In this document: in pieces, positions 4,053-21,670 of the stretch
Layout of the letters: every line of letters starts with the position of its first letter
How positions within the stretch are numbered: the first letter of the stretch is position 1
Origin: Lachnoclostridium sp. An196
GTDB lineage: Bacteria; Bacillota; Clostridia; Lachnospirales; Lachnospiraceae
Assembly (NCBI RefSeq): GCF_002160135.1
Contig: NZ_NFJZ01000001.1
Location: forward strand, 1 to 64,000
DNA: 64,000 nt
Direction of reading: 5' to 3'
Position numbers and translations under genes: made by a program
The notes under the pieces: generated by a model
Told to the model about the DNA's origin: nothing
The model's input: the letters and a program-made list of their open reading frames with translations, nothing else
Databases searched by the model: none

Positions 4053-4985
4053 ATGGGAAATATGGAAAAGGCGCTTTGGAACCTTGCGGACACATGTCTG
4101 GAGGCAGGAGAAAGGGAGCGGCCGGAAAAGCAGTGGCTCGGACGTATGTATGACAGATTCCGGGAAGCGAATAGAAGCCTGGGAAAAGCGGAAGCGGACG
4201 AGCAGATCTATATGAAAATGTATGCGCAGATTCCGGGGAAACCGTCGGACACTTTGAAGATCCGTTACTGGAGAACCGGGAGACACCTTCCGGTGAGCAG
4301 GGAACAGTGTCTGTCTTTTGGAAAAGCACTGGATCTTTCCGAAGAGGAGATGCGGTATCTGATCCAGGGATATTATGACCGGAGCGACCGCGTTTTTGAG
4401 ACGGAGCAGGAGGGAGGAGCCTATGGACGGAGGATCGGGCTTCTGAACGAGCTGATCCAGGAATATCTGGATAAAGTCCATCCTGTGATCCGCCACCGTC
4501 TTTACCGCTCCGGCGCGGATCTGGAACACAGTCTCCGCCATATTTATTATACGGACGCCAGAAGCTATCTGGACGCCAGAGAACCGGATCAGACAGAAGT
4601 GAAGCAGCACATTGCCAGCATCAATTATGTATCGGAATTCGGGCGTCAGATGAAGCTTCTGGGAGAGATTCCCAGAAAGACGATGATCCGGCATCTTCTG
4701 CTGTTCGCGGTTCCTTTCGTGAGCAGGGAATTGTTAAGCAGCCGCCTGGAGGCGTTTGGGTACCTTCCGCTGCAGGATACGCATACGCAGGTGGACGGGA
4801 GCCGTCTGGACCGCCTGATCCTTGGCTTCCTGGAACTGTATGAGGAAAACTGTTCCGGAAAAGATCCGGAAAGCTGCAGCCGGTGGTTCCGGGAAGCATA
4901 CGGGATCCTGGACCGGTATCTGGAAGAAAGAGGAAATACAAGCCTGAGATTCTTATATTTTAAGGCGCTGAAGGGGAGCGAATAG
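4053..4985 (+). CDS. Unknown protein, first gene of the STAND/Hsp70/AAA+ cluster
   Basis: This 310-residue soluble protein is not recognised. Residues about 64-115 (from TLKIRYWRTGR to the YYDRSDRVFE end) look like a small helical, possibly HTH/XRE-like unit with the phrase SREQCLSFGKALDLSEEEMRYLI. The rest is predominantly helical and charged, with no transmembrane segment and no catalytic motif I can identify. GGGGGAG precedes the ATG by a few bases. It ends four bases before the first STAND ATPase, so the two are probably translated together. By position it could be a regulator, an adaptor or an effector for the STAND proteins. This is inference from context only. Confidence 0.75.
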   Translation: MGNMEKALWNLADTCLEAGERERPEKQWLGRMYDRFREANRSLGKAEADEQIYMKMYAQIPGKPSDTLKIRYWRTGRHLPVSREQCLSFGKALDLSEEEMRYLIQGYYDRSDRVFETEQEGGAYGRRIGLLNELIQEYLDKVHPVIRHRLYRSGADLEHSLRHIYYTDARSYLDAREPDQTEVKQHIASINYVSEFGRQMKLLGEIPRKTMIRHLLLFAVPFVSRELLSSRLEAFGYLPLQDTHTQVDGSRLDRLILGFLELYEENCSGKDPESCSRWFREAYGILDRYLEERGNTSLRFLYFKALKGSE

Positions 4986-4989
4986 ACGG

Positions 4990-6990
4990 ATGACTTCTTC
5001 AAATGATGAATTCTGGGAATGGAGAGAACGGCTGTTTCTTCTGCGCGGGAAATATAAGGATACGCCGCCCGGTTTCCGCAGCGATGAGGAAGCGCTGCGG
5101 GAATGGGAGCGTTTTATCCGTGAAAAAGAAGAGTATGCGGCCAGGAACAGGCATCGGATCCAGGCAAGTTACTGCCCTCCGGAAGAGCCTTTTGTGGGAC
5201 GCGAAGGTTACCTGGAAGAAATACAGCGCCGGTTCCAGGAGTGGGAAAGCCCGGTAGTCCTGTACGGGGTCGGAGGGATCGGCAAGACGGCTCTGGCCAG
5301 GGCATATATCCGGAAGCACCGGCAGGATTATGACGCCGTGCTGTTTTTGTCCTGCCAGGCGGACCTCAAGTCGGTGATCTGCGACGACTGCCAGCTCCCG
5401 ATCGTCAACCTGCAGTATTCCGCGGATAAATATGGAAATAAAAACCGTTACTTTAAGGAAAAGATAAAGGTTCTTCAGGATATTGCCGGAGAAACCAGGC
5501 TGCTGCTGGTGTTCGATGACTGCAATATGGACAGGGATGCGAAAATGGCAACGGTATTTTCGCTGCCCTGCCATATTCTTGTCACCACCAGGATGGATCC
5601 TTCCGTATGGGGCGCGTACAAGGGGATCCGGATCCGGGAGCTGGAGACAGACAAGGAATGGGCGCAGTTTGTCGGGGCCTATCAGGACAGAAAACTTACC
5701 CCGGAAGAGATAAAAGCAATCCTGGAGTACCGGGAACAGGTGAACGGACATACGCTGTTCATGATGATGCGGGTCCGGGGAATAGAGATTCAGGGAGATT
5801 TGCTGGATACGGTCGCCAGGGATCTGCTGTCCCGTTTCCGGCTCGGGAAGATGGAAAAGCAGGCGCTCAGGGAGCTGTCAATTATGCCGGTACAAGGAAT
5901 CTCAAGATCTCTTTACCGGAAAGTCTCCCGGGTGACGGACCGGGCGGTGGACTGCCTTGCGGACCATCTGCTGGTGCGGAGAGAAATGGTATGCGGAGCG
6001 GATCAAGAGGATGAAAAAGAGGATGAAATATTGTCTTTGCACCCGCTGATCGCAGAAGCTGCCAGGGCCGTATTTGCGCCGTCTCTGGAGAACTGCCATA
6101 AGCTGGTGGATGGTTTTTCACATCTGCTGTACTATACCTGGAACCGGACGTACCTGCAGAACCAGAGAATGGAACCGTATGTGTTCGCTTTGATTTCCGC
6201 TTTCCCCAGGCCGCTTCCCTGGCTGGCGCGCCAGCTGGATACGGTGGCTACGTTTTTATGGATCCAGGGATATTATGACGAGGCGGAATCCTGGTACCGG
6301 AAAGGGTATGAGGTACTGGAGAAATGTCCGTCTTTTGACAAATTATATTATCAGGCCCGTACCAATGCCTGCAGTAAGATTTCCCGGATCTTCCGGTATC
6401 AGGGAGAATATCAAAGTGCGCTGGAACTGATCGAAGAAGCCCTCAGGCACGCAGAAGCGCTCCGGGAGGAATCCGAGAGAGGTGCCTGGTATGATTGGGA
6501 AGGAAACTGGGAAGTGCTGTATCACTATGCGCTGTTGGATAAAGCAAAAATCCTGCTCGGCATGGAACGGAATGAAGAGGCGGAGGCGCTGTGCCGGGAG
6601 GGACTAGGGTATGTGCGCCGGGTACAGGAAAAAAAGGGCGCGGAGGAGTTCCGTGAAAATGAGTTTAAAAGCGTCCTGGTGGAAGTGCTGGCGGCAAGGG
6701 GAGAATTCGGGCAGGCAAAGGAACTGTGCAGGGATATGGTAGAGAAAGCGGAGCGGTACCGGGGCAGGTACTTCAAGGACACGCTGAGCTGCCGGGAACA
6801 GCTGGGCGACGTGTGCATGGCAGCCGGGGACTTCCGGGAGGCCGGGGAAGAGTATGAAGCTGTCCGAAGTTTTCTGTGCCGGGAATACCCGTATCAGGAG
6901 GAATGGATCAGGCGGATCGATGAAAAATTATCCGGAAGCCGGACAGCCCGGCCGCATATGGCCGGAGAGAACAGGGGGGACAGGATGTGA
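4990..6990 (+). CDS. STAND (NB-ARC-like) ATPase with C-terminal TPR-like repeats, copy 1
   Basis: The 666-residue protein has a short N-terminal region (about 1-65) with the phrase KYKDTPPGFR, then VGRE (69-72), a P-loop GVGGIGKT (93-100), Walker B LLLVFDD (171-177) and ILVTTR (196-201), the order seen in NB-ARC/STAND switch ATPases. Residues from about 420 to the end are helical repeats of TPR type, with repeated YxxALxLxxEAL patterns, the usual ligand-sensing part of these proteins. STAND proteins typically oligomerise when the sensor binds its ligand. No toxic effector domain is fused at the N-terminus, so any output must come from a partner. It overlaps the next gene at ATGTGA and has a paralogue at 8317. 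Confidence 0.88.
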   Translation: MTSSNDEFWEWRERLFLLRGKYKDTPPGFRSDEEALREWERFIREKEEYAARNRHRIQASYCPPEEPFVGREGYLEEIQRRFQEWESPVVLYGVGGIGKTALARAYIRKHRQDYDAVLFLSCQADLKSVICDDCQLPIVNLQYSADKYGNKNRYFKEKIKVLQDIAGETRLLLVFDDCNMDRDAKMATVFSLPCHILVTTRMDPSVWGAYKGIRIRELETDKEWAQFVGAYQDRKLTPEEIKAILEYREQVNGHTLFMMMRVRGIEIQGDLLDTVARDLLSRFRLGKMEKQALRELSIMPVQGISRSLYRKVSRVTDRAVDCLADHLLVRREMVCGADQEDEKEDEILSLHPLIAEAARAVFAPSLENCHKLVDGFSHLLYYTWNRTYLQNQRMEPYVFALISAFPRPLPWLARQLDTVATFLWIQGYYDEAESWYRKGYEVLEKCPSFDKLYYQARTNACSKISRIFRYQGEYQSALELIEEALRHAEALREESERGAWYDWEGNWEVLYHYALLDKAKILLGMERNEEAEALCREGLGYVRRVQEKKGAEEFRENEFKSVLVEVLAARGEFGQAKELCRDMVEKAERYRGRYFKDTLSCREQLGDVCMAAGDFREAGEEYEAVRSFLCREYPYQEEWIRRIDEKLSGSRTARPHMAGENRGDRM

Positions 6991-8345
6991 TACGTTTTAC
7001 GGAGAAAATATCCGGAAAAAAGCTGGGACTTTTTCTGCTGCCGCTGATGTTGTCCGCGGTCTTTCAGCAGATCTATGAACCCGTCAGCGCCGCGGTGGCG
7101 GGACGCTACCTGAACGAGGAAGCGGTGGCGGTGATCGGCGCGTGCAGCGGATGGAGCGGCGTGGTGGAATCTCTGTTTGTGCACATGACGACAGGATTCA
7201 GCATCTGTATCAACCGGCAGGCCGGGTTAAAGGACAGCGGAAAGATGCGTTCGGTATTTCAGACGGCGGTAAAAATCACGCTTTTTTTGACCTTCGGAAG
7301 CATGCTGCTGGCTCTTTTCACAGAGCCTTTTATGGGTCTGGCAAATATTCCGGAATGGATGCGGCCGGAAGCCCGCCGGTACCTTGTATGGCTTTTCCTG
7401 GGCGGAGGCTTCTGGGGGATCCAGAACCTTCTGGCCTGCGTCATACAGGGAAAGGGGGAGAGCACGTTCCCTTCCGTTGTGATGATTGCTTCCGCTGTTG
7501 CCCAGACCGCGATGTCTGTCGTCCTGCTGGGCATGCTTGGCGTGGGGGTGGAAGGAGTGTCTCTGGCTGTGTTCATCAGTCAGGGCATCAGTTCCCTGCT
7601 GCTGTTCCTTTATCTGTGCCTCAGGGACTGGGGAAGGGAACTGATATGTCCCCTGGCCGGAGGAACCCCCGGCATATGGAGGGATATTCTGGAGAGCGGC
7701 ACAGCGAAATCTATGATGGGGATTATGACCAACATCGGGTATATGGCGGTGCAGCGCTGCGTGAATCTGTATTCTGTGGATGTGATCGCCGGATATACAT
7801 ACGCGATGTCTTTGATGAATCTGTTTATGCAGCCGTTATGCGCGTATGCGATTGCCGCGAATATCATGTCCGCGCAGAACGTGGGCAGCGGGAGCCCGGA
7901 GATGGCGTTTTATTATAATCGGAAGATGACGGTGCACAGCCTGTACTGGTGCGCGGGCTATGTACTGCTGGCGCCGGTGTGGGTTCCGTCCCTGATGCGC
8001 CTTCTGGCCGGGCCAGGGGTATCTCCTGGCCTTCTTCAGGCCGGGAACAGCTGGCTGTATGTGGCGGTGGCCTCTTACCCGTTCCTGGTGGTCCTGATGA
8101 TCGGAAGGAACGCCCTGCAGGGGATGGGATATTATAAAGTGCTTTTGCTGCTGGGCTTTCTGGAAATGGCGGCGCGGTTTTTCTCGGCGTGGGTACTGGT
8201 CCCGCTGATGGGATATACGGCGGTCTGCCTCAATACGGCGCTGGTCTGGGGACTGCCGGGACTCACCGCGCTGTGGCTTTACCGGAAGAGAATGAAAGAG
8301 GCATGGAGGGATGCTTATGGGGAAGAACGAGTATTTGGACGGTGA
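6987..8345 (+). CDS. MATE-family multidrug/metabolite efflux transporter inside the cluster
   Basis: This polytopic membrane protein of 452 residues shows the two-lobed MATE fold: LMLSAVFQQIYEPVSAAVAG at the start of lobe one and a matching helix set after about residue 225. Family members export cationic drugs or metabolites by Na+ or H+ antiport, or flip lipid-linked substrates. It starts with GTG at 6987, overlapping the ATGTGA end of STAND copy 1, and its 3' end overlaps the start of STAND copy 2 by some 29 bases. Translation of the three is therefore probably coupled. That close linkage suggests it works with the STAND pair, perhaps as a membrane output or a substrate exporter, but the substrate is unknown. 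Confidence 0.88.
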   Translation: MIRFTEKISGKKLGLFLLPLMLSAVFQQIYEPVSAAVAGRYLNEEAVAVIGACSGWSGVVESLFVHMTTGFSICINRQAGLKDSGKMRSVFQTAVKITLFLTFGSMLLALFTEPFMGLANIPEWMRPEARRYLVWLFLGGGFWGIQNLLACVIQGKGESTFPSVVMIASAVAQTAMSVVLLGMLGVGVEGVSLAVFISQGISSLLLFLYLCLRDWGRELICPLAGGTPGIWRDILESGTAKSMMGIMTNIGYMAVQRCVNLYSVDVIAGYTYAMSLMNLFMQPLCAYAIAANIMSAQNVGSGSPEMAFYYNRKMTVHSLYWCAGYVLLAPVWVPSLMRLLAGPGVSPGLLQAGNSWLYVAVASYPFLVVLMIGRNALQGMGYYKVLLLLGFLEMAARFFSAWVLVPLMGYTAVCLNTALVWGLPGLTALWLYRKRMKEAWRDAYGEERVFGR

Positions 8346-10425
8346 AAATCTGGAATGGCAGGAGCGCCTGTTCCGCCTTCGGAAAAAATACAGGGAGACG
8401 CCCCCGGGATTCCGGGAAGCGGAGGAAGAAGAAAAAAGCCTGCGCGACCTTCGCCGGATCAGAAAAGAGTATGAAGAGCGGAAAAAATACCGGATCCGTT
8501 CCGGATACCGGGCTTTGCAGGAGTGTTTTGTGGGAAGGGAGCGTTACCTGACGCGGATCGAGGAGATCCTGGCGGAAAAATCCGGGCCGGCGGTTCTGTA
8601 TGGAATCGGGGGGATCGGCAAAACCGCGATCGCCAGGGCATATGTCCGCCGCCATCAGGAAGAGTATGATTCCGTGCTTTTCCTGTCCTGCGACATCGGC
8701 TTTTCTCCGCTGTTCTGCGACGATATCCGCGTGGCGGTCTCCAACCTGCATTATTCCAAAGATAAATACGGGAGCAAGAAGCAGTATTTTAAAGAAAAAA
8801 TGAAAGCTCTGACGGAGATTGGGGAAGAATCCAGATTTCTGCTGGTGCTGGACGACTGCAACCGGGAAGCAGATCCGTACATGGAACAGATCTTTGCCCT
8901 GCCCTGCGATATTCTGGTCACGACCCGGGTCGATCCTGCCATGTGGGGAGTGGCCGGCGGGATCCCGGTGACGGAACTGGAACCGGGCCGGGAATGGGAA
9001 GAGTTTGTCCGGGCGTACCGGGGATCGGAGCCGACGCAGGAGGAATGGAAAGAATATCGGGAATACCGGGAGAGGATCGGCGGGCATACGCTGCTTATGA
9101 TGCTGAAGCTGCACGGCGTGGAGCCGGGAAAAGACGCATCCGGCACGATGGAGATGATCGCCAAGGATATGTTCCGCAGATTCCCTCTGAAAAAATGGGA
9201 AAAACAGGCGCTCCGGGAACTGTCCCTGATGCCGGTGCAGGGGATTTCAGAAGATTTGTATTATCAGGTATCGGGAATGGCTCCCGGGGCAGTGGAACGG
9301 CTGGAAGACCGTCTGCTGATACGGCGGGAGGAGAAAGAGGGGAAATATGTGCTTTCGCTCCATCCGATCATCGCAAAAGCGGCCCGCGACGTGTTTGTAC
9401 CTACCCAGACAAACTGCAGAATGCTTCTGCATGGATTCTATAAGATCGCGCGCAATTCCTGGAACAGGACCTATCTGGAAAACCAGGAGATCGAGCCGTA
9501 TATATTTGCTTTCCTGAACGCTTTTTCGGCGCCGAAACCGTGGCTGTTCAGAGAATACGGCGCGTTTATCGCATGGCTGTGGATCCAGGGATATTTTGAA
9601 GAGGCGGAAAAATGCTGCAGGAGCCTGGTCTGTCAGATGGAAGCCTGTTACGGCGCTGTACATCAGGCGACCGGGGAAACCTATCTGTGGATGGCCGCCG
9701 TCTATTATAATTCCATGAATTTTGAGAAAGCGGACGTCTGGTATGAGAAAGGCTTTCAGAGCCTGAACGCCTGCAGGCCGTTTGACGACCGGTATTTTAA
9801 TACCCTCGGCACTTCCTACGCCAAACTTTCCCGATCCGCGCGCTACAGAGGAGATCTGGAGCTGGCGCTTGACCTGGCGGATGAGGCGCTGAAGATCGGC
9901 AGGAAATACTGGGATCTCTGTGAAGAAAGGGGCGTCTGGTACGAGGAGAGTGACGCCCAGAATACCTGGTGCCACTGGCTTTTGAACAAGGCGAGGATCC
10001 TGTACGACATGGGAAGGCTGCAGGAAGCCTGGGAACTGGGGCATCAGGCATGGAAGGGAGTCTGGGACGAGGTGCAGGAAGGCAAGAACTATGGCTACGA
10101 ACTGGTGGAATTTGAACGTTTTCTGGTAAAAGCGCTGATGGCGCTGGAAGATTACGGACGGGCTGAGGAAGTCGCGGAAGAGATGCTGAAGACCGCGCTG
10201 GCTTACCGGATGGAGGGATCGAAGGAGGTATTAAGCTGCCGGGAGCAGATGGCGGACCTGTATCTGAAAATGGGCGATGAAAAGAAAGCGGCCGGATTGT
10301 ACGGGGAGATCATACAGAAGCTGATGGAAGATTTTCCATATCAAAAAGACTGGATCCGGAAAATACAGTCCAAATGGAAGGCGGCGGGCGGAAATGTTAA
10401 AGTTCACCTTATTGACGAAGAATAG
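8317..10425 (+). CDS. STAND (NB-ARC-like) ATPase with C-terminal TPR-like repeats, copy 2
   Basis: This 702-residue paralogue of the gene at 4990 repeats its architecture: N-terminal KYRETPPGFRE, VGRE, P-loop GIGGIGKT (96-103), Walker B FLLVLDD, ILVTTR, then TPR-like repeats to the end. Over the 33 residues around the P-loop, 25 are identical to copy 1 by eye, while the repeats differ more, consistent with sensing different ligands. I prefer the ATG at 8317 because GGAGGG sits six bases upstream; an in-frame ATG at 8311 directly abuts that site. The copies probably arose by duplication and may form a hetero-oligomer. No effector domain is fused. The ligand is unknown. Confidence 0.88.
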   Translation: MGKNEYLDGENLEWQERLFRLRKKYRETPPGFREAEEEEKSLRDLRRIRKEYEERKKYRIRSGYRALQECFVGRERYLTRIEEILAEKSGPAVLYGIGGIGKTAIARAYVRRHQEEYDSVLFLSCDIGFSPLFCDDIRVAVSNLHYSKDKYGSKKQYFKEKMKALTEIGEESRFLLVLDDCNREADPYMEQIFALPCDILVTTRVDPAMWGVAGGIPVTELEPGREWEEFVRAYRGSEPTQEEWKEYREYRERIGGHTLLMMLKLHGVEPGKDASGTMEMIAKDMFRRFPLKKWEKQALRELSLMPVQGISEDLYYQVSGMAPGAVERLEDRLLIRREEKEGKYVLSLHPIIAKAARDVFVPTQTNCRMLLHGFYKIARNSWNRTYLENQEIEPYIFAFLNAFSAPKPWLFREYGAFIAWLWIQGYFEEAEKCCRSLVCQMEACYGAVHQATGETYLWMAAVYYNSMNFEKADVWYEKGFQSLNACRPFDDRYFNTLGTSYAKLSRSARYRGDLELALDLADEALKIGRKYWDLCEERGVWYEESDAQNTWCHWLLNKARILYDMGRLQEAWELGHQAWKGVWDEVQEGKNYGYELVEFERFLVKALMALEDYGRAEEVAEEMLKTALAYRMEGSKEVLSCREQMADLYLKMGDEKKAAGLYGEIIQKLMEDFPYQKDWIRKIQSKWKAAGGNVKVHLIDEE

Positions 10426-10469
10426 AGAAATCGTTAATGTACAAAAATACAGAGTCAGGAGGGTGAATG

Positions 10470-11948
10470 ATGATCGGGATTGACCTGGGAACTACTTTTT
10501 CAGCGGCGGCGTATCTGGATCCGGACGGGAACCCGCAGCTTGTAAGCAACAGCAGGGGGGCGCGTCTGACTCCTTCGGTAGTGATGGAAGAGGACGACGG
10601 CACGGTCGTCGTGGGGGAAGATGCCAGAGAGTCCATGGTGTTGATGGGAGACGCGGTCGTTTCCACGGTAAAAGATTATATGGGTACGGACAGAAAGTTT
10701 GTTCTTCCTTCAGGAACGGCTTATACTCCGGAGCAGGTGTCGGCGCTGATACTGAAAAAAATTGTGAAAGACGCCGAGGAATTTCTCGGAGAAGAGATTC
10801 GGCAGGCAGTGGTTACAGTGCCTGCCTATTTTAATGACGCGCAGAGGCAGGCCACAAAGGATGCGGGAAGGATGGCGGGACTCGATGTGGCCTGTATGCC
10901 CAACGAGCCCACGGCCGCCGCGCTCTACTATGCATGGAGCAGCCGTATGGAGAAGGGACGCATCCTGGTCTACGATCTGGGCGGAGGGACCTTCGACGCT
11001 TCCATCGTGGAGATCTGCGGGAAACAGGCGGAGGTGGTGGCCACCGGAGGGATCCGCAAACTGGGCGGGCATTTTTTCGACCAGCTGATCCTGAATTATG
11101 CGGCGGATTACCTTCTGGAGAAATACGGTCTGGATGTGTACGACGACGAATATATCGACGAACTGCAGGAACTGAGCCTGAAAGCGGAGAACTGCAAAAT
11201 CCAGTTGAGCAGCAGGACTTCCGCCCAGATGGTCATCAAGATCGGGAAGGTACGTGAAAAGCTGGAGATTACCCGAGCGCAGTTTGAAAAGATGATCGCA
11301 GGATTTTACGGGCGGACGGAGAGCACGGTGCGGATGGTGCTCCAGGATGCCGGGATGAGCTGGAAAGATATCGACAAACTTCTCCTGGTGGGCGGATCCA
11401 GCAAGATTCCGTATATCGCGGAGCGGCTCCGGGAATTTTCCGGGATGGAGCCTTCCCATGAGACGAATCCGGACGAGGCGGTGGCGCTGGGAGCGGCGCT
11501 CTATGCTTCCGGATTGTTTGAAAAGGTCCAGGATGTGTGTTCCCACAGCCTGGGGATCGTGTCCCGCAGAGGAGCCGGAGCGGAGAAATACAACAGTGTG
11601 ATCATTCCCAGAAATACGGCGCTTCCTGCCCGGATGTCCAGGGACTATTATACAGGGACGAACGATATGAAAAAGATCTGCCTGGAGATCACGGAGGGGG
11701 AGGACGAGGACCTGGATTATGTGAGCATCCTGGCCGGGATTGAGATCCTCCTGCCGCCGGGGATTCCCAGGAACACCAGGGTGACGGTGGAAATGTTCCT
11801 GAACCAGAACCAGCTTCTGCACGTATACGCCAGGATCCATGCGGAGCCGGAGATCTATAAAGAGATCGAGATTCCCCGCAGCAGCAACCTGGACGAGTCG
11901 GAGATCGCGGAGCAGACGACGCTTCTGGAACGGATCGTGGTGCAGTAG
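10470..11948 (+). CDS. Hsp70 (DnaK-like) protein lacking the C-terminal lid
   Basis: The 492-residue product has a complete actin-fold ATPase: IGIDLGTTFS at the N-terminus, NEPTAAALYY, DLGGGTFDAS and GGSSKIP. After about residue 375 only a short beta-rich substrate-binding part remains, ending at about 490. Canonical DnaK is about 610-640 residues and carries an alpha-helical lid, absent here, as is the EEVD-like or disordered tail. It lies inside the cluster with no dnaJ or grpE beside it, so it is not the housekeeping dnaK. A role as a dedicated ATP-dependent chaperone or switch for cluster proteins is inferred. The ATG at 10470 is preferred over 10467 by its spacing to AGGAGGG. Confidence 0.9.
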   Translation: MIGIDLGTTFSAAAYLDPDGNPQLVSNSRGARLTPSVVMEEDDGTVVVGEDARESMVLMGDAVVSTVKDYMGTDRKFVLPSGTAYTPEQVSALILKKIVKDAEEFLGEEIRQAVVTVPAYFNDAQRQATKDAGRMAGLDVACMPNEPTAAALYYAWSSRMEKGRILVYDLGGGTFDASIVEICGKQAEVVATGGIRKLGGHFFDQLILNYAADYLLEKYGLDVYDDEYIDELQELSLKAENCKIQLSSRTSAQMVIKIGKVREKLEITRAQFEKMIAGFYGRTESTVRMVLQDAGMSWKDIDKLLLVGGSSKIPYIAERLREFSGMEPSHETNPDEAVALGAALYASGLFEKVQDVCSHSLGIVSRRGAGAEKYNSVIIPRNTALPARMSRDYYTGTNDMKKICLEITEGEDEDLDYVSILAGIEILLPPGIPRNTRVTVEMFLNQNQLLHVYARIHAEPEIYKEIEIPRSSNLDESEIAEQTTLLERIVVQ

Positions 11949-11966
11949 GCGGGAGGAGAGCCGGGG

Positions 11967-13988: not shown

Positions 13989-14000
13989 GAGGGAAAAAGA

Positions 14001-15371
14001 ATGAGCGATGTGAGAAACCTGTGCATGGAACTGCTGGCAGTGGAGGAGAAATGGAGAACGCTGGCAGGAACGAGTAAAAAGAAGCTTCCGGATCTGGGCT
14101 CGGCCCACGCGAATATACAGAAGGCGAACCGGAGCAAACTCATCAAATGGATATTCGTGGCGGCGATCCTGGCGGTGGCTTTTCTGGTCGTGAAGCCGAT
14201 GCTGCCTGTGGCAGGAGAGGACGACAGCTTTGAGATGACTTTTTTCGCGGGGATCTGTAAGTTTGGATTCTGGTTTATTCTGCTCTGCGCCCTGGGACTT
14301 GTTCTGTGGCTGGGCGGAATCTACGGCAAAGTAGACGAGACGGACAAAAAGGCCGACCGTACTTACGCGGAGAATAAACGTTTCAACGAAAAACTGGACG
14401 CGGATCTGGCAAAAGCGAAGGAGGATCATGCCCGGATCCTTCAGATGCTGCGCACGGAGGGACAGAAAGGGTATTTCTATGACATCCCGTTTGATCCGGC
14501 GGCCACATACAAGACGTTCAGGGACGGCGTGGAATTTTACAGTTCTGAGATGGGCAACAGTTTCATCGGAGGCCCGCCGGTGATCTATAAATATCATGAG
14601 AATTGGCCGGTCCGCCTGGACGGGTTCCATCCGGGAAAAAGCTGCAAGATCAAAGAGGCGATGGACGTCCTCACGGACAAGGATTATGTAAAGATCTGTC
14701 CTGACAGGAAATGGATCCGGGAGAACCAGGAAAAAGAGTGCGTCCTGTTCGGTATGTGGGATATGTATCAAGAACCCCTGAAGGACAGGAAAATATTTAA
14801 ACTGGGGAACCTGGACTTGAATCAGGCGATAAAGACAGCGGTGAGGACCATGTCGGACGCGGCCAGATTTTTAAGCTCCGGGATCGACGCGTACGACCCG
14901 TTCATCCCCCAGCGGATTCCCCGCTCCCAGGTGAAGGACGACAGGAATGAAACGCTGGAAAAAGAAAGGCAGGATTACCACTACGGGATAGTGGACGAGG
15001 AGGATTTTGAGCATCTGCATTATGCGTACACTTTTTTGCTGATAGAAAAGGGATACCTGGTTATCTGCAACGGAAAGCTGGTATGCGCCGCTCTGTCCAA
15101 CCATCCGGTGGGCTCGCTGCTTATGGAGTTTAACATCGGAAAAGGACAGTACAAACGGTGGGCAGATTACCATGGATACCTGGCAAAGGTGGATACAAGC
15201 GGCAAGCAGGCCAGCCCGGATATGGCGTCCACGATCGATTATCTGACAAAATACTGCGGGAGTTATTTCCCGGCATTTGATCCGTTTATGAAGAAGCCGG
15301 AGGGGATGCCGGACAGTCTGTTCCGTCTCCTGATGGCCGGATGGTATCGGGCTTCGCAGAATAAGAAATAG
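14001..15371 (+). CDS. Unknown membrane-anchored protein with coiled coil
   Basis: This 456-residue protein is not recognised. Two hydrophobic helices lie at about residues 50-68 and 85-108. A charged stretch at about 112-155 is likely a coiled coil. A large C-terminal region (about 160-456) is soluble and probably cytoplasmic, rich in Tyr, Lys and Asp, with no catalytic signature I can identify. A strong GGAGGG ribosome site precedes the ATG and the gene lies 12 bases after the AAA+ gene. It could tether the AAA+/Hsp70 machinery to the membrane. That is inference from topology and position. Confidence 0.78.
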   Translation: MSDVRNLCMELLAVEEKWRTLAGTSKKKLPDLGSAHANIQKANRSKLIKWIFVAAILAVAFLVVKPMLPVAGEDDSFEMTFFAGICKFGFWFILLCALGLVLWLGGIYGKVDETDKKADRTYAENKRFNEKLDADLAKAKEDHARILQMLRTEGQKGYFYDIPFDPAATYKTFRDGVEFYSSEMGNSFIGGPPVIYKYHENWPVRLDGFHPGKSCKIKEAMDVLTDKDYVKICPDRKWIRENQEKECVLFGMWDMYQEPLKDRKIFKLGNLDLNQAIKTAVRTMSDAARFLSSGIDAYDPFIPQRIPRSQVKDDRNETLEKERQDYHYGIVDEEDFEHLHYAYTFLLIEKGYLVICNGKLVCAALSNHPVGSLLMEFNIGKGQYKRWADYHGYLAKVDTSGKQASPDMASTIDYLTKYCGSYFPAFDPFMKKPEGMPDSLFRLLMAGWYRASQNKK

Positions 15372-15390
15372 ATAACAGGAGGAAACGCAG

Positions 15391-16095
15391 ATGGGAAGAG
15401 TGACAGGACTGGGAGCCAGGCTGATCTTCGGCTCCCTGCTGGTGTATATTTTTGTGAGTTTTCTGGGGGCGTCGGGTCCTTTTGGAGGGATGGCCGGGAT
15501 GCTGGTCTCCAGGTTCCCGTTCCACAGGCAGATTGCGGAGGCGTTTGCGGAAGGACTGGGGTATGATATCAGCATGATCCCGGCGGTGTATTCCTCTATC
15601 GTGGACGACCTGATCGTGCTTCTTCTGTCGGTGGCGCTGTCGGGAGGCATTTCCACAACGCTGGGACATATCTTCAGCCCTGACGGAAAAGTGGGAATAC
15701 AGGGGATGGCAGTGTCCGCGCTGTCCCTGGTCGTGACGGTGTGCGTGGCCAGCTTCCTTTTCGGCGGCATTGTGCAGTGGATGAACCAGAGCCTGGGCGG
15801 AAGGCTTCTGCTTCCGGTACTGAAAGTGCTGATCCTGGTAGTTTCAGCCCTGGTCTTCATCGCGTTCGTACAGGCATGCGCCGGACTGGCGAGAGGGGAG
15901 GTCGGACTTGGCCTCCTGGGTTTTTTTGCCATCCGGTCGGTCATAGAGACAGTGGTGGCGGATGTGGCGGCTGTCTACATCATACTGACGATCCTGAACC
16001 GGGCCGGAGCGGTGGCAGGAACCTTCACGGCGGTTTATATTGTGGCGACGCTTGTGCTGTTTGTGGTCGGAAACCTGGGCAGGGCAGCGTCCTGA
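15391..16095 (+). CDS. Unknown polytopic membrane protein
   Basis: The 234-residue protein is almost wholly hydrophobic, with about five or six predicted transmembrane helices (for example near residues 10-28, 72-90, 108-130, 142-165, 172-195 and 205-228). It has no conserved transporter motif I recognise and few charged residues inside the helices. AGGAGG precedes the ATG at good spacing. It is 19 bases after the two-helix membrane protein, so the two may form a membrane complex. A CvpA-like fold was considered because of the small Gly- and Val-rich helices, but I cannot support it. Confidence 0.75.
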   Translation: MGRVTGLGARLIFGSLLVYIFVSFLGASGPFGGMAGMLVSRFPFHRQIAEAFAEGLGYDISMIPAVYSSIVDDLIVLLLSVALSGGISTTLGHIFSPDGKVGIQGMAVSALSLVVTVCVASFLFGGIVQWMNQSLGGRLLLPVLKVLILVVSALVFIAFVQACAGLARGEVGLGLLGFFAIRSVIETVVADVAAVYIILTILNRAGAVAGTFTAVYIVATLVLFVVGNLGRAAS

Positions 16096-16133
16096 ACGGA
16101 CTGTGAAAATAACTGAAAAGGAGAAGAAAGCAT

Positions 16134-17789
16134 ATGGGCGACAGAGACGACGGTATTCTGCTGGACGAGGCGCAGGGGCAGGAACAAGAACAGGACGAAT
16201 CTTTGATGGATCTTCTGGGACTGGAGGATGATTCAGAAAACATTGAGCTGATGAAGGGCGCGGCGGAACAGGGAAAGGAAGAAGGCATCCTGAACCTGGG
16301 GATCGCATATCTGCACGGCAAAGGGGTAGAGCAGGACTTCGCGGAAGCATGCTACTGGTTTGAACAGAGCAGGGACGCCATGGCGATGGTGCAGATCGCG
16401 GAAATATATGATAAAGAAGGCAGCAAAGAGCTGGCTGTGGAATATTACCGGCGAGCCGTATCCGCGCCGGAAGACAGGTTCGGGGGCTTCCGTGCTTCCG
16501 CCTGCATCAACCTGGCGCTGAAGCTTTGCGCGGAAGACCCGGAAGAAGCTGATCGGTATCTGCGCCAGGCGGCGGATCTGGGAGTGCCGGAGGATTATCA
16601 GCAGATCGCCTGCAAACTTGCAGGGATTCTTGGAGGCGTGTTCGCGAAGCAGGAAAATCTGGAGAAAGCGCTGGAATGGCTCCGTTTCTCGGCGGACGGC
16701 TGCGAGGACACGGGCGTGAAGAAGCAGCTGACAGCGGTCTGCAGAGAGGTGCTGAGAGAGGGACCGGGCAGCAGCCTTTATAAAGAAGCGCTGGAAGGGA
16801 TGGAGCATCTGGCGGATGGAGGCGACCAGCTGGCCATGATGACGGTTTTCCAGTACTGGGATAAAAATACAGATCTGCCCCAGAGCGCCGCGAAATATAA
16901 AGAGTGGCTGGTGAAAGCCGCCGATTTTGGGGTGGAATACGCGCAGTTCCTCCTGGTGCAGGAATATCTGGGGACCGGAAGACGGCGGACTGACATTCCG
17001 GAGGATATCGGGCTGGCAAGAAAATATTTTGACAGGTGCAAGGTGTGGATCGGGACCGTGGAGAACGGCGGTGAAATCGTCGCTCGTTTTGAGGCGGCGA
17101 TCCGGGCGAAAGAGCAGGGCGCGTCAGCCGGGAACAAAGCAGGATCGGAGGACGCTGTACCGGAGAGAATTCTGGAGCAGGAAGAAGCGGAAGAGATTGT
17201 CGAACGTATGAGCAGGACCGGAGAGACGGTGTTGGTGATCCCCGAGGGCGTGACAGGTATCGGCGTCCGCGCGTTTGACAGCAGAGCTTCAAAAAAGCTG
17301 AAATATACAAAAAATATTGAATCTATACGCTTCCCGGATTCCGTGAGAGAGATCGACACATGGGCTTTTGCGTGCATGGATTCGCTCAAAGAGATCACGC
17401 TGCCGCCGCGCCTTAAGTATCTGGGCAAGGATGCTTTTTCCGGTGATTGGGTGAATTTTATCAATTTATGGGTGCGCGACAAACGGACGTTCCAGTGCAT
17501 CGAGATCCCTGCATGCACAGAATTGGAAGAGGACGCCCTCTTTGGAATCCACCGGATCATGACGCTGAGATTCCTGGAGGGAAGAAAGGTGCTGGACTGG
17601 AAATTTCTGGGAGACAAAACGTGGATCGGAGAGGTGATCGTGCCGGATTCGGTAGAAAAAATGATTCCTTTTGAGCCCAGCTACAGAAAGATCCGGATTG
17701 AGAAGTTTTCCCTGCCGTCAAAGCTTAAGGATCAGTTCCAGGAATGTATCGGGAAATACTGCCCTAAAGCCCGGGCAGAGTTTCGGTAG
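16134..17789 (+). CDS. Sel1-repeat protein fused to a BspA-like leucine-rich repeat domain
   Basis: The 551-residue protein starts with an acidic Glu/Gln-rich segment, then Sel1-like repeats from about residue 40 to 330 (canonical unit LGIAYLHGKGVEQDFAEACY). After a linker it carries a LRR_5/BspA-type leucine-rich domain (about 365-500) with phrases such as IPEGVTGIGVRAF and IRFPDSVREIDTWAF. Both repeat types bind proteins. No signal peptide is visible, so the LRR domain, which in BspA proteins is usually surface-exposed, here appears cytoplasmic. A strong AAAAGGAG site precedes the ATG. The role inferred from context is client recognition or scaffolding for the Hsp70/AAA+ pair. Confidence 0.85.
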   Translation: MGDRDDGILLDEAQGQEQEQDESLMDLLGLEDDSENIELMKGAAEQGKEEGILNLGIAYLHGKGVEQDFAEACYWFEQSRDAMAMVQIAEIYDKEGSKELAVEYYRRAVSAPEDRFGGFRASACINLALKLCAEDPEEADRYLRQAADLGVPEDYQQIACKLAGILGGVFAKQENLEKALEWLRFSADGCEDTGVKKQLTAVCREVLREGPGSSLYKEALEGMEHLADGGDQLAMMTVFQYWDKNTDLPQSAAKYKEWLVKAADFGVEYAQFLLVQEYLGTGRRRTDIPEDIGLARKYFDRCKVWIGTVENGGEIVARFEAAIRAKEQGASAGNKAGSEDAVPERILEQEEAEEIVERMSRTGETVLVIPEGVTGIGVRAFDSRASKKLKYTKNIESIRFPDSVREIDTWAFACMDSLKEITLPPRLKYLGKDAFSGDWVNFINLWVRDKRTFQCIEIPACTELEEDALFGIHRIMTLRFLEGRKVLDWKFLGDKTWIGEVIVPDSVEKMIPFEPSYRKIRIEKFSLPSKLKDQFQECIGKYCPKARAEFR

Positions 17790-17819
17790 GCTGCGGGCAG
17801 GGAGCCGGAAGGAGGAAGC

Positions 17820-18407
17820 ATGAGAGAGGAAGAACTGTTATACAGCGCTCCGGTGGAAGAAGAGCAGCCTGCCCTGGATGAACTGGAGATTGAAAAGACG
17901 GCGCGCCGCTACCAGACAGGAGACGGCGTGGAGAAGGATCTGGACGAGGCCCTGCGGTGGTACAGGAAGAGCAAAAGCTCCCTGGCCCGGTACGCGTCGG
18001 CCCTGATTTGGCAGGAAAAAAGGGCATACAAAGAGGCAGAGCAGGAACTGCTGAAAGGCCTGGAGGCGGAAGAAGGCGACGCTATCCCGTTTATCCAGAT
18101 GGAACTTGGCAAACTGTACCTGAGCGGACAGATTTCAGGCACGCCAGACTACAGCCTCGCCATCCGCTATCTGGAAGAGGGCCTCAGGGGAGAACCCGCT
18201 TATGGAAAGCTCTGCGCGGGTCTTTTGGGACTGGCGTATGAGAAAGCAGGGAGAACGATCCAGGCGATCCACTGGTACAAGACCGCCGTCCGGGACTTCG
18301 GACGGGAAGAATACCGGGAGAACCTGTACCGCCTGTATCTGACCGGAGCGGCAGGCGCGCAGATGAAGCGTGTGGCGGAAGAGGCCCTGGGGAAAGAGGT
18401 GCGGTAG
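17820..18407 (+). CDS. Small Sel1/TPR repeat protein
   Basis: This 195-residue soluble protein consists mainly of Sel1-type repeats, beginning with YQTGDGVEKDLDEALRWY at about residues 29-46 and continuing with SLAIRYLEEGLRG and AIHWYKTAV units. No enzyme motif or membrane helix is present. GGAAGGAGG precedes the ATG. The stop codon is followed directly by the ATG of the next gene with no spacer, so translation is probably coupled. It is likely a short scaffold or adaptor of the cluster. Confidence 0.82.
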   Translation: MREEELLYSAPVEEEQPALDELEIEKTARRYQTGDGVEKDLDEALRWYRKSKSSLARYASALIWQEKRAYKEAEQELLKGLEAEEGDAIPFIQMELGKLYLSGQISGTPDYSLAIRYLEEGLRGEPAYGKLCAGLLGLAYEKAGRTIQAIHWYKTAVRDFGREEYRENLYRLYLTGAAGAQMKRVAEEALGKEVR

Positions 18408-19874
18408 ATGGCGGAAAGGACGGAAATGGCACAGGGAGTGCTGGAACGGTATGGGATCGACTCATCCCTGCCGGACAGCCAGGCCTTGACGCTGCTGGAA
18501 AAAGAACATCAAAAGCTTCTGAGAAAACTGAACCATGTCTTCGGAAACGCCGTAAAGGAGCAGGAACTGGAACAGGAACTGGACGTCCTGGAGACGGCGA
18601 TGGAAGAGCTGGAACGCGCGGGAGGCAGAAAACTGTCTCTGGACGATGTGGAGCTGGAGACGAAGAGCCTGTCCCAGACGCAGATTGAATTTGACGAGAA
18701 CGCGCAGACCGAGGAGGAGGCGATCGCTGAGATGATGGAGATCCGCCGCCTGGAGAAACAGATAAGGAAAGACCAGGGAAAGAATATAGAAGTCAGCTTC
18801 CGGGGAATCCTGAAGCTTTTGGATTACTATAAACGGAAGGGCAGCTTTCTGGGAAGAGAAAAATGGCTTGCCTATGCGGTTGAGTGGTTCCATTATCCTC
18901 AGCACACCAACGAGATGTACGACCTGCAGCGGACCAGGACGGACGGCCTGGCGGACCCGGAGAAATGCCGCTACTGGATGCGCCGGGCGGCGCAGACCGG
19001 ACACAAGGACGCCTGTTTTGAGATGGGAAAAGAGTGCATGAAGGAGGGAAGCCCTTCCTTTGACCTGAAACAGGCCGCAGTATATTTTGCGAAAGCTGCG
19101 GACCGGGAGCATCCGCAGGCGTATCTGTACGCGTTCACGGCGTTTTATAAACTGGGAGATTACAACAGGGCGGAGACCTGCCTCAAGGCGGCGGACAAGA
19201 TCGGCGTGCCGGGAGCGGCGTACCGCCTGGGCGTGGTCTACGATGTGGACGAGAACAGTTATGGGCAGAGAAACCCGGAGGAAGCGCTTGCCTGGTATGA
19301 AAAAGCGTACCGGCAGAGCCCGGACGGGGATGTGTGCTACGGGCTGGGCGTCCTGTACGATGAGTTCGGAAGAACGCGGGAGGCGGAGGAGGTCCTGCAG
19401 CGCGGGATCCGGGAATACCGGTCAGAAGACTGCGAAGAAGCCTGGGAAGACCAGAAAGGACGTGCAGAAAACGCAGGATCCGGGGAAGAACCGGAGGAAG
19501 AGCCGGAAGCGGCGTCATGGGAAGGAGAGCCTGAGAAAGAACCGGAGGAAACGTCATGGAAAGCGGAGTCGGAAGAAGAGATGGAATCGTTGATATCCCC
19601 GAAAAGGGATTCCAGGCAGGATCTGATCCGGCAGGCTACGGCTCTTTATGAGCAGGGAAACTACAGCAGGGCGGCGCTGGTATTTCTGAAGCTGAAAGGC
19701 GAGTATGAGCTGGAAGGGGAATACCGGGCCGCGCTGTGCTATCTGGCGGATAAGAAGAGCCGATTCAGCAGAGGGCTTGCAAAGACCTGGCTGAAGGCGC
19801 TGGCGAAGGAAGATTATAAGGATGCCGGGGATATCTACGAAAGAGAATTTGGCGCTCTGAAGCGGAAGAAATAA
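18408..19874 (+). CDS. Sel1-repeat protein with helical N-terminus and acidic linker
   Basis: The 488-residue protein has an N-terminal helical region (about 1-150) opening with LERYGIDSSLPDSQALTLLE and a coiled-coil-like stretch; Sel1/TPR repeats at about 175-345; a Glu/Pro-rich acidic linker at about 355-405 made of near-repeats of the pattern EPEEEPEAASW; and a short C-terminal TPR-like unit. The first 60 residues faintly recall the small J-like or helper segments found in proteins next to variant Hsp70 genes. However, no HPD motif is present, so a DnaJ function is not supported. It starts on the base after the previous stop codon. Confidence 0.8.
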   Translation: MAERTEMAQGVLERYGIDSSLPDSQALTLLEKEHQKLLRKLNHVFGNAVKEQELEQELDVLETAMEELERAGGRKLSLDDVELETKSLSQTQIEFDENAQTEEEAIAEMMEIRRLEKQIRKDQGKNIEVSFRGILKLLDYYKRKGSFLGREKWLAYAVEWFHYPQHTNEMYDLQRTRTDGLADPEKCRYWMRRAAQTGHKDACFEMGKECMKEGSPSFDLKQAAVYFAKAADREHPQAYLYAFTAFYKLGDYNRAETCLKAADKIGVPGAAYRLGVVYDVDENSYGQRNPEEALAWYEKAYRQSPDGDVCYGLGVLYDEFGRTREAEEVLQRGIREYRSEDCEEAWEDQKGRAENAGSGEEPEEEPEAASWEGEPEKEPEETSWKAESEEEMESLISPKRDSRQDLIRQATALYEQGNYSRAALVFLKLKGEYELEGEYRAALCYLADKKSRFSRGLAKTWLKALAKEDYKDAGDIYEREFGALKRKK

Positions 19875-19902
19875 ATCAAGGACGGTCAAGGAGGAAGATA
19901 GG

Positions 19903-21051
19903 ATGTTTTTTGTCAAACCGAAAATGGCTGATGAAGAGAGAAAGAAATGGTCTGAGGAAATTGAACAGCTCCTAGACGCAGATAGGACTCAGGAGGCTTA
20001 TAATAAAGCTCTGGAGTTCGATAAACTGGACAAGGACGCCGCAGGCTATCATATGAGTTATTTTTATTTTATGGGAGAATGTGTGCGGGAGGACAGAAGG
20101 GAAGCTTTAAAACGGATCGAAAAATACGTGCGCCGCGTGCCGGACGACCCGGAAGGATGGTACCGGTACGGCCTTTTCCTGCGGCTGGAAGGAAATGAAC
20201 CGGAAGCGGCGGAATGCTTTGAAAAGGCATCCGGAATGGGACATATCCAGGGAACGGTGGATCTGGCGGGAAGCTGTAAGATCCTGGCAGACCAGTTCCG
20301 CAACCAGGCGGCGGGAACGCTGAATGTGAAAGAATACGGGGAGTGCAATAACCGGGCGGTTTCTCTGTATATCCGCTCCATGGCCCTCTATGACAAGATC
20401 GTGCAGGAACATCCCGACGAACTGGAGGACGCCGACTGGCAGGGATACGGCCGCGCCGCGGACATGATGTATTTCCTGAGCCTGGCCGGAGAAGTAAAAA
20501 AAGTGAACGTGAAAGATTCGGAGTCTCAGAATTACCTGAACCTGGGGCTGCAGCTCGTGTCCGGCAAGGGGAACGTCAAAGAGCAGCGTTACTGGAGAAT
20601 CAATGCGGCGAGAATATACAGCCAGATGGAGCAGGCAGGATGGAAAGCCATGGCAGAATATTTCCGCATGTCCATGTGTCTGTACGACTGCTCTGAGAAA
20701 AAGAACCAGCCGATGTTTGCGAACGCCAGATGGCATATGGACCGGATACAGGAGCTGAACGGCAGCCTGTCGGAGGAACAGAGAAAGTCCTATCCGGAGG
20801 ATTTCGCGGATGTAACAGAACTGTATGGAAAAATGGAGAAAAAATACGGGAAGATTATGGAAAACCGGCTGCGCGCGGGGGAATATCCGGATCTTTCCGA
20901 GGACTATATGCCGGGACAGGCCCCGGCAGTGGAAGACTGCAGACGGTTTATGGATTTTGCGGAGGCGCTCAGAAACGGCGCTCCGGCTCAGCCGGATGCT
21001 TCCAGGGAGCCGGAAAAGAAGAAAAAGGGACTGTTTGGATTATTCCGCTGA
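19903..21051 (+). CDS. TPR-like repeat protein
   Basis: The 382-residue soluble protein is built from helical pairs of TPR type (for example RVPDDPEGWYRYGLFLRLEG and EAAECFEKASGMGH near residues 75-120). It ends in a basic Lys-rich tail followed by GLFGLFR. No catalytic motif or membrane segment was found. AAGGAGG precedes the ATG and the gene is 28 bases after the Sel1/acidic-linker gene. The Phe-rich C-terminal tip could act as a docking peptide. Function is unknown beyond probable protein-protein interaction within the cluster. Confidence 0.78.
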   Translation: MFFVKPKMADEERKKWSEEIEQLLDADRTQEAYNKALEFDKLDKDAAGYHMSYFYFMGECVREDRREALKRIEKYVRRVPDDPEGWYRYGLFLRLEGNEPEAAECFEKASGMGHIQGTVDLAGSCKILADQFRNQAAGTLNVKEYGECNNRAVSLYIRSMALYDKIVQEHPDELEDADWQGYGRAADMMYFLSLAGEVKKVNVKDSESQNYLNLGLQLVSGKGNVKEQRYWRINAARIYSQMEQAGWKAMAEYFRMSMCLYDCSEKKNQPMFANARWHMDRIQELNGSLSEEQRKSYPEDFADVTELYGKMEKKYGKIMENRLRAGEYPDLSEDYMPGQAPAVEDCRRFMDFAEALRNGAPAQPDASREPEKKKKGLFGLFR

Positions 21052-21066
21052 AAGGAGAGAGAAAGA

Positions 21067-21621
21067 ATGATTCCGTATGTGTTTACTTTTATCGGGATGT
21101 TCCTCCGCCAGTGGTATGTCAATGTGATCAATCCCAGCGACGGCGGGGCAGTGTTCTTAACGGCCGTCGGAGTCCTGCTGACCGTCATGGGATTATGGAA
21201 GACCTATAAGATTCAGGGAGGAAAATATGCCGACAGGAAAAGACTGGGGATTGCCATGGGCGTCCACGGGGCGATCTGGCTGGCAGGCCTTTTGCTGTTT
21301 GGCGTGGTGAGCTGGATCCTGGGCAAGATTGTCTACCTGATCGCGCTTGTCATCGGACTGGCGATCGCTTATTTCTGGTTCCGTTCGCTGGACGGGAGCA
21401 GTTCTGACACAACACACAGCCAGGAAAGTGACGAAAAGGAGGGACTGGATGCGCTCCCCAATCTGATGTACGATGGCTACAAGCGCTGGCAGCTGGAGTA
21501 CAGATGCCGGGATCATGCGGTCTATCACGATGACGACGGCAACAAGATTACGATCCGCCAGGCCAGCGTATGCAGGGGGAATATCCAGACAGACGCAGGA
21601 TTTTTTCAAAGTTATCAATAA
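21067..21621 (+). CDS. Unknown membrane protein, last gene of the cluster
   Basis: The 184-residue protein has about three or four hydrophobic helices in its first 120 residues (near 5-20, 28-46, 60-85 and 88-108) and a soluble C-terminal tail of some 70 residues, with DDDGNKITI in a probably beta-rich end. It is not recognised. AAAGGAGA precedes the ATG, 15 bases after the TPR gene. Its stop codon abuts a hairpin, so it closes the transcription unit. Confidence 0.72.
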   Translation: MIPYVFTFIGMFLRQWYVNVINPSDGGAVFLTAVGVLLTVMGLWKTYKIQGGKYADRKRLGIAMGVHGAIWLAGLLLFGVVSWILGKIVYLIALVIGLAIAYFWFRSLDGSSSDTTHSQESDEKEGLDALPNLMYDGYKRWQLEYRCRDHAVYHDDDGNKITIRQASVCRGNIQTDAGFFQSYQ

Positions 21622-21644
21622 AAAAGAGGGGCTTGCGGCCCCTC
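21620..21644 (-). terminator. Terminator of the purine permease gene, shared with the cluster end
   Basis: GAGGGGC (21626-21632) pairs with GCCCCTC (21638-21644) around a five-base loop. Read leftward it is followed by a run of six U, so it ends the minus-strand permease. Read rightward the U tract is poor (AAAATATTT follows), so termination of the plus-strand cluster here is weaker. Confidence 0.8.
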
Positions 21645-21670
21645 AAAATATTTGCCTGTGTCAGGCGATT

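Follow-up and report, generated by a model that had tools for sequence, protein, structure and literature searches.

Positions 4053-21621 of a 64,000-nucleotide stretch of the Lachnoclostridium sp. An196 genome (contig NZ_NFJZ01000001.1; the whole stretch is hereafter the window) are filled by thirteen open reading frames (ORFs), g1 to g13, all on the forward strand. A first-pass annotation, made from the sequence alone, had read these genes as one thirteen-gene system. Comparison with other genomes indicates that they are probably not one machine. They fall into unit A (g1-g4, g12 and g13), built around STAND ATPases, and unit B (g5-g11), built around a variant Hsp70 and a tandem AAA+ protein.

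Table 1. Genes and other features of the locus (window positions; scores in bits, with Pfam cut-offs where given; aa, amino acids)
Feature	Position	Strand	Description
g1	4053..4985	+	310 aa, unit A; residues about 22-107 predicted to form an XRE-type helix-turn-helix fold, C-terminal part helical
g2	4990..6990	+	666 aa, unit A; STAND ATPase; NB-ARC 35.4 (cut-off 23.5), TPR_12 39.2 (30.1)
g3	6987..8345	+	452 aa, unit A; MATE-family transporter; MatE 94.6 (24.9)
g4	8317..10425	+	702 aa (704 from ATG at 8311), unit A; STAND ATPase; NB-ARC 32.7 (23.5), TPR_12 36.7 (30.1)
g5	10467..11948	+	493 aa, unit B; lid-less variant Hsp70; HSP70 372.3
g6	11967..13988	+	673 aa, unit B; tandem SpoVK/CbbX/EccA-type AAA+ with N-terminal extension; AAA 130.7, AAA_lid_6 95.3, two stretches each
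g7	14001..15371	+	456 aa, unit B; orphan, two hydrophobic segments near N terminus (hydropathy)
g8	15391..16095	+	234 aa, unit B; orphan membrane protein with several spans (hydropathy)
g9	16134..17789	+	551 aa, unit B; Sel1/TPR and BspA-type LRR; LRR_5 63.1, Sel1 42.5
g10	17820..18407	+	195 aa, unit B; Sel1/TPR protein; Sel1 46.2
g11	18408..19874	+	488 aa, unit B; three-helix N-terminal domain and Sel1/TPR repeats; Sel1 36.4, TPR_19 47.0
g12	19903..21051	+	382 aa, unit A; TPR-like, basic C terminus; TPR/Sel1 scores sub-threshold
g13	21067..21621	+	184 aa, unit A; small membrane protein, about three spans (hydropathy)
Terminator-like hairpins	21626..21668		between g13 and convergent permease gene
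Cassette segment absent from sister species	10453..19850		unit B segment missing from an otherwise collinear locus; blastn blocks stop at 10452 and restart at 19851

Pfam was run on all thirteen proteins (for g6, the best 25 of 39 families were listed), NCBIfam on nine, and PADLOC 2.0.0 on ten (all but g3, g8 and g10). The gene list of the first-pass annotation was largely right. Its common orientation, its two NB-ARC-like STAND ATPases (g2 and g4), MATE transporter (g3), lid-less Hsp70 (g5) and double CbbX-type AAA+ protein (g6) all held, as did three orphan membrane proteins (g7, g8 and g13), which carry strongly hydrophobic segments. Of four proposed Sel1/TPR proteins, g9, g10 and g11 passed the Sel1 cut-off, whereas g12 did not. 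Pfam assigned no family to g1, g7, g8 or g13, and g1 had been left uncharacterised although it proved to be the steadiest partner of the STAND genes. The gaps from g1 to g13 measured 4, -4, -29, 41, 18, 12, 19, 38, 30, 0, 28 and 15 bases; the claim of tight spacing was correct, but "often overlapping" was too strong for overlaps at two of twelve junctions.

A sister species delimits the two units. In the nearest relative with the same flanks, an uncultured Lachnoclostridium (G1048, copy L099; G numbers denote genomes, with G000 the window's own, and L numbers loci), the order is kamA-g1-g3-g4-g12-g13-permease, with protein identities of 84-94% (94% for g4, 89% for g12 and 84% for g13). The g12 homologue lies directly behind the STAND gene, and g2 is absent. 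Alignment with the window continues through the g4 stop codon plus 27 bases and then skips a segment that takes in g5 and everything after it up to the final codons of g11. Over the closing 24 bases of g11 the two sequences align again, with 21 matches; the next best match in 20 kb reached 15, and none of 200,000 shuffled tails reached 21. This remnant favours deletion in the sister over insertion in the window. As the C-terminal third of g11 was found in no other module, fusion of an inserted segment with a tail already resident in the window is a possible alternative. In a second species of the genus (G1049), g1-g3-g4 and another STAND gene are followed by three genes in place of g5-g13, none of which had a blastp match to the window's proteins.

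Unit A recurs without the cassette. Both g2 and g4 qualify as STAND NB-ARC proteins, with NB-ARC above the gathering score and C-terminal TPR repeats, and DNA-binding regulators made up 37 of the 50 structural matches listed for the predicted g1 model. Genomes of the family were searched for each unit, 299 in each search and apparently the same draw. A STAND search at E 1e-30 recovered six genomes, five with g1 (G000, G063, G090, G204 and G228) and one without (G155), whose STAND protein (L098) has a TIR-like start by eye. Whole-genome searches found g1 in 3 of 17 genomes of the genus (its own, G1048 and G1049). We then tallied 15 g1 loci. L097, reached via its STAND gene, was included and L098 was excluded; L081, L082, L095, L094 and L096 stand for L099, L100, L101, L104 and L107, which are the same loci under other identifiers. 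The g1 gene adjoined a STAND gene in 14 of the 15, a MATE gene was adjacent to g1/STAND in 9, and g13 was present or related in 5, window included. Genes after the STAND gene differed between species (G1049/G090, L102, L106 and L110). The Hsp70 cassette was found in the window only; 12 loci were without it in the stretch read, and 2 (L096 and L109) were cut by contig ends. In g1, unit A offers a conserved marker for a STAND family that lacks characterisation; its downstream genes vary, and the genomes in which it has been seen to date belong to Lachnospiraceae and other Clostridiales.

Two further features were seen at unit A loci. A glycine-rich protein of 145-152 aa after the STAND gene (L082:12722-13180 and L095:12053-12490) shares 83% identity across genera, against 42-57% for its neighbours; by eye it resembles a glycine zipper, and the G1049 copy matched no Pfam family. 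At L108, a cluster with a vWA protein and a kinase-like protein (by eye) lies beside unit A on the other strand (L108:13100-20911), and a SpoVK-like AAA+ gene lies on unit A's other side (L108:1487-2908), with 45% identity to g6 over 281 residues.

Within unit B, g5 belongs to the Hsp70 superfamily, with an actin-like nucleotide-binding domain bearing the phosphate motifs and a beta substrate-binding subdomain. It is not a canonical DnaK. The protein stops just past the beta subdomain, without the C-terminal lid, and an alignment with the genome's own DnaK and relatives places KVQDV where DnaK has ILLLDV, so that the hydrophobic interdomain linker is missing. Its score to TIGR02350 was 377.6 bits, against a cut-off of 822.55. 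The nucleotide-site motifs are retained by eye, and the best solved relatives are DnaKs, whose alignment reaches about residue 482 of g5. The genome encodes five Hsp70-like genes including g5; a sixth match, of 340 aa, was weak. Two of the genome's Hsp70s are short and similar (L008:10484-12028 and 15274-16800, at about 88.5 and 93.3 kb of contig C12) and form a branch of their own (100/100 support); they lie near a 374 aa helix-turn-helix-like ORF and orphans by eye. Elsewhere on that contig (L010:8769-13907, about 394-399 kb), a 564 aa Hsp70 comes immediately after a 1145 aa protein that begins like a J domain and carries many TPR-like repeats (by eye).

The AAA+ protein g6 carries Walker A, Walker B and Arg-finger-like motifs in both domains. 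It has the AAA core and AAA_lid_6 domain of the SpoVK/CbbX/EccA clade. Marks of that clade are a sensor-1 GY and an Asn placed four residues ahead of the first arginine finger (PMC10659427). The former occurs in both g6 domains (AGY at residues 282 and 557). In the corresponding ANPGFRSR and ENQGLRSR motifs, Arg residues fall four and six positions after Asn; most relatives keep only the later one, which makes it ambiguous to which Arg the Asn mark refers. The nearest relatives of g6 were the SpoVK, CbbX and EccA models and the CbbX and EccA structures. It scored 473.5 bits to TIGR02881 (SpoVK; cut-off 422.95) with two matched stretches summed, and fell below the equivalog cut-offs for CbbX (414.3 vs 459.25) and EccA (TIGR03922, 396.6 vs 466.65). 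The AAA+ proteins of G048 and G049 likewise have two complete domains. In the longer relatives (G096, G473, G541, G213 and G1039), the first domain has a Walker A-like motif and gave no match to the Walker B pattern used.

The N terminus of g11 was modelled as three helices (pLDDT 86.3). By eye it had been considered a J domain without HPD, and this assignment was dropped. None of 9 aligned g11-type N-terminal sequences contained HPD, comparison by hhalign with 25 aligned J domains gave probabilities of 3% (local) and 0.5% (global), and no J domain was named among the 50 rows listed in either PDB comparison of the model. Assignment to EAD9 (PF19962) was also rejected, at 15.8 bits against a cut-off of 25 (E 0.012), with the G096 relative at 15.1 bits (E 0.02); the other Pfam hits were unrelated. 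We therefore describe it only as a conserved helical N terminus.

Unit B was traced through both of its ATPases. At E 1e-80, g6 relatives occurred in 9 of 392 genomes of the order, and an Hsp70 gene directly preceded the AAA+ gene in four (the window, G096, G473 and G541). When 17 genomes of the genus were searched whole, two (its own and G1039) held the g6 protein. An Hsp70 profile built from four unit B members, to which the genome's own DnaK scores about 415 bits, gave at least 739 bits in 5 of the 299 family genomes (G000, G048, G096, G213 and G473). The remaining genes listed in the family and phylum searches scored at most 467 bits, and most were at least 600 aa long. In the phylum sample, the window's gene alone stood out (1 of 398 genomes), the other 32 genomes over threshold falling at 436-465 bits. 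Additional modules came from G541 (884 bits), G1039 (two in tandem, 750 and 434.5 bits) and, more distantly, G049 (467 bits).

The Hsp70 gene was directly followed by the AAA+ gene in all nine modules from eight genomes, a count that is partly by selection since G541 and G1039 were reached via the AAA+ gene. A 21-row tree, which took in the 5 of 13 additional loci that passed an ORF filter, placed the Hsp70s of eight modules in one clade, g5 included, with 100/99 support. In six of the nine modules (the window, G473, G541, G213 and both of G1039), a protein encoded after the pair passes the Sel1 cut-off. The closest module, in G048, is 72% identical for Hsp70, 65% for AAA+, 39% for g8 and 43% for g11; it also holds three g9-like proteins, then a PP2C phosphatase. 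Sel1 proteins of the G096 and G473 modules have C-terminal hydrophobic spans (hydropathy), and lipoprotein-like ORFs lie near some modules (by eye). In G213, an integrase-like ORF lies upstream of the unit B relative (L072, by eye), and about 1.4 kb past the module there is a MATE gene on the opposite strand.

The two modules of G1039, which belongs to the window's genus, are divergent and stand in tandem on one 19 kb contig (L077, each Hsp70-AAA+-Sel1). In G515 (L032:7814-16255), a g6 relative lies beside a BREX BrxL-like ORF and near an Hsp90/HtpG-like gene, and elsewhere in the phylum, in G835 and G813 (L075 and L076), paired 510 aa Hsp70s stand on either side of a small orphan, ahead of a polyprenyl-synthase-like gene (all by eye).

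The two units have separate distributions. In the family searches, unit A (STAND with g1) and a unit B Hsp70 (at least 739 bits) shared only G000. The unit B profile was also run on six whole unit A genomes (G063, G090, G204, G228, G1048 and G1049); the genomes behind L102, L103, L105, L106 and L108-L111 lay outside this search. Each of the six gave one gene, at 384-417 bits, which is the DnaK range, compared with 739-884 bits for most unit B Hsp70s. Four of the six assemblies are 88-89% complete, and a unit B Hsp70 could have been missed there. Neither G1048 nor G1049 held a g6 relative at E 1e-60 in whole-genome searches. Conversely, g1, g2 and g4 homologues were not found in the 15-20 kb read around the modules of seven other genomes. 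Unlinked homologues, which the first-pass annotation had named as a result that would speak against its reading, are seen between units A and B but not within either. This pattern, together with the sister locus, which lacks exactly the cassette but keeps both sides, leaves the claim of one thirteen-gene system unsupported.

We read the locus as a composite of a unit A STAND switch with export and a unit B dedicated chaperone relay, and put the probability of this reading at about one half. The observations comprise how the genes are linked, where the cassette begins and ends, that the ATPase motifs are intact and that the Hsp70 has neither lid nor usual linker; they also include the separate distribution, which weighs against a general coupling of chaperone and STAND proteins. 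Several points count against the composite. Units A and B lie only 41 and 28 bases apart without a convincing terminator between them, and in this species they may therefore be co-transcribed and act jointly. The placement of g12 in unit A depends on one sister species. For g1, the best structural Z score was 7.2, inside the range that the tool regards as possibly chance, and Foldseek alone gave E 0.17. The integrity of unit B is also uneven. AAA+ genes occur without an adjoining Hsp70 in G503, G515 and G451, and in G307 and G573 the contig breaks off at the AAA+ gene. The Hsp70s of G049 and of the second G1039 module score near the DnaK range, and that of G049 falls outside the supported clade. 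The Sel1 follower is below the cut-off of 30.7 in G096 (24.8 bits) and G048 (24.0 bits), and G049 has none. The makeup varies as well: a gene of 150-200 aa occurs in four of nine modules but not in the window, g7 was found in its own genome only among 250 family genomes, and a g8 relative was seen only in G048.

We infer the biochemistry of the composite, together with any client, signal and co-transcription of the two units, from these sequences. In unit A, the NB-ARC/TPR ATPases g2 and g4 would sense a signal and oligomerise, acting with the separately encoded, predicted helix-turn-helix protein g1 to control the locus; the MATE exporter is the commonest candidate for an output. For unit B, protein remodelling by Hsp70 and a CbbX-type AAA+ protein with Sel1 adaptors and a membrane link, as first suggested, gains support. 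Characterised members of the SpoVK/CbbX/EccA clade are dedicated chaperones that act narrowly on particular clients (PMC10659427), and Pfam identified no peptidase family in the thirteen proteins; on these grounds we favour a dedicated remodelling relay. A lid-less, fast-exchanging Hsp70 would bind exposed client segments, Sel1/TPR proteins would serve as adaptors, and the tandem AAA+ ring would remodel the client without a protease. Proteins g7 and g8 may tether the relay to the membrane.

Other explanations were weighed against the composite. STAND ATPases are frequent in defence, and unit A could serve to protect against phages or other bacteria, its downstream effectors being exchangeable and unit B one such payload. 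Its patchy distribution (6 of 299 family genomes, one without g1) and the varied genes behind the STAND gene would suit this role. Yet PADLOC named no system, giving only generic AAA/TPR cross-matches for the ten proteins scanned, g1 relatives were missing from the plasmids and viral contigs searched, the flanks look housekeeping-like, and MATE transporters are not known to act as defence effectors; we find a defence role doubtful. Unit B might instead be an EccA/SpoVK-type chaperone for secretion or the envelope, preparing particular proteins for export or membrane enzymes. The affinities of g6, the hydrophobic spans of some Sel1 proteins and the nearby lipoprotein-like ORFs all fit, but Pfam found no secretion gene among the thirteen and g6 stays below the EccA cut-off, leaving this explanation unlikely. 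We judge a general proteostasis back-up, in which an auxiliary Hsp70 and AAA+ disaggregase would have no dedicated client, to be very improbable. Five Hsp70-like genes in one genome would make specialisation or back-up common, but unit B is rare in the family, its Hsp70 alone rises well above the DnaK range in the phylum sample, and without lid and usual linker it would be a poor general foldase.

A single machine of all thirteen genes would have the chaperone relay hold or monitor the STAND ATPases as a guard, with stress or infection that occupies the Hsp70 releasing them. The shared direction and short gaps agree with this, and the g11 remnant in the sister suggests that the combination predates this one species. 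There is also precedent, since sensing by bNACHT25 depends on DnaJ, and NLRs are affected by Hsp90 (PMC12169576). That the cassette lies in the window alone among the 15 unit A loci, that six unit A genomes are without the unit B Hsp70, that unit B stands alone elsewhere and that the sister keeps unit A without it make such a machine improbable. Equally improbable is a bolder reading, in which unit B is an undescribed bacterial bi-chaperone, passing clients from Hsp70 to an AAA+ ring via Sel1/TPR adaptors at the membrane by analogy with DnaK-ClpB though of separate origin, and is here built into a STAND locus such that chaperone occupancy gates an NLR-like switch. The composite of separable units remains our preferred reading.

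The surroundings of the locus were also examined. The flanks hold penicillin-binding-protein-like and lysine-aminomutase-like genes and, on the other strand, a permease-like gene (names by eye), and the genes next to the locus resemble housekeeping genes (by eye). The first-pass annotation had noted a hairpin at the end alone; the hairpins after g13 were recovered, but a terminator consensus scan listed 28 candidates on both strands, against 16.3 +/- 4.1 expected, including internal ones that we do not trust. GC content is similar in g5-g11 (0.52-0.59) and unit A (0.52-0.57), and composition therefore gives no sign of a foreign cassette.

A mobile-element origin was considered and set aside, as no supporting relatives of g1 or g7 were found in plasmids, viral contigs or phages. 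For g1, plasmids gave no relative, and none of 25 pattern matches in viral contigs was one; g7 had no relative in plasmids or phages. Plasmid searches with g5 returned 278 records, all below 60% identity (the 15 listed at 37-39%, many annotated dnaK), and those with g6 returned 293, also all below 60% (the 12 listed at 41-43%). In viral contigs the Hsp70 profile picked up DnaK-like genes, the best at 38% among the matches listed. A g5 pattern scan of genome contigs gave 22 pattern matches and no relative. In the viral collection itself (L112-L191), at least 593 of 599 pattern matches encoded Hsp70 relatives; DnaK-like genes are common there.

Within the open-licence literature searched, we found no published system with this gene set and no paper joining Hsp70, Sel1 and CbbX or SpoVK, in keeping with the first impression that the locus is not a described system. 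Several known systems are partly similar. Type III-A CoCoNuT systems with a SpoVK-like extension combine, in large compound operons, an Hsp70-like nucleotide-binding and substrate-binding unit, a tandem SpoVK-family AAA+ protein, leucine-rich repeats and a glycine-zipper protein (PMC11090510). The window shares the Hsp70-like unit, tandem AAA+ protein, LRR and compound arrangement. It differs in that Pfam found no McrB GTPase, McrC or TerY-type VWA family among the thirteen proteins (for g6, among the best 25 of 39 families) and that its Hsp70 is a stand-alone protein; the CoCoNuT AAA+ protein, as described there, keeps Walker motifs only in the C-terminal domain, whereas both sets are intact in g6. 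MoxR-vWA ternary and GTPase-centric conflict systems likewise bring together NTPase chaperones and STAND NTPases, some with HSP70 and some with Sel1 (PMC7159879). Here, by contrast, Pfam found no vWA, MoxR or GTPase/tubulin family, and the AAA+ protein is of the SpoVK/CbbX type. Compared with the SpoVK/CbbX/EccA chaperones as described in PMC10659427, g6 shares the sensor-1 GY in both domains, the lid family and a variable N-terminal extension, but the unit B AAA+ protein has two or more AAA+ domains and pairs with an Hsp70. Unit A resembles Xre-HTH/STAND/TPR regulators (PADLOC STAND_TPR) and the FxSxx-COOH TPR protein (NF040586) in joining NB-ARC and TPR with a helix-turn-helix-like partner. 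In the window this partner is separate, g4 scores a weak 13.4 bits to STAND_TPR, and g2 scores 98.9 bits against the NF040586 cut-off of 300. Finally, bNACHT25-DnaJ phage sensing also ties a STAND-class ATPase functionally to an Hsp70 system; it uses the host's general DnaJ/K and a NACHT domain, whereas the window encodes its own variant Hsp70 and NB-ARC proteins (PMC12169576).

Treating units A and B as separable averts the naming of a false thirteen-gene system. For unit B, an Hsp70 without lid and usual linker, paired with an AAA+ protein of a dedicated-chaperone clade, offers a small, testable model of Hsp70/AAA+ cooperation beyond DnaK-ClpB.

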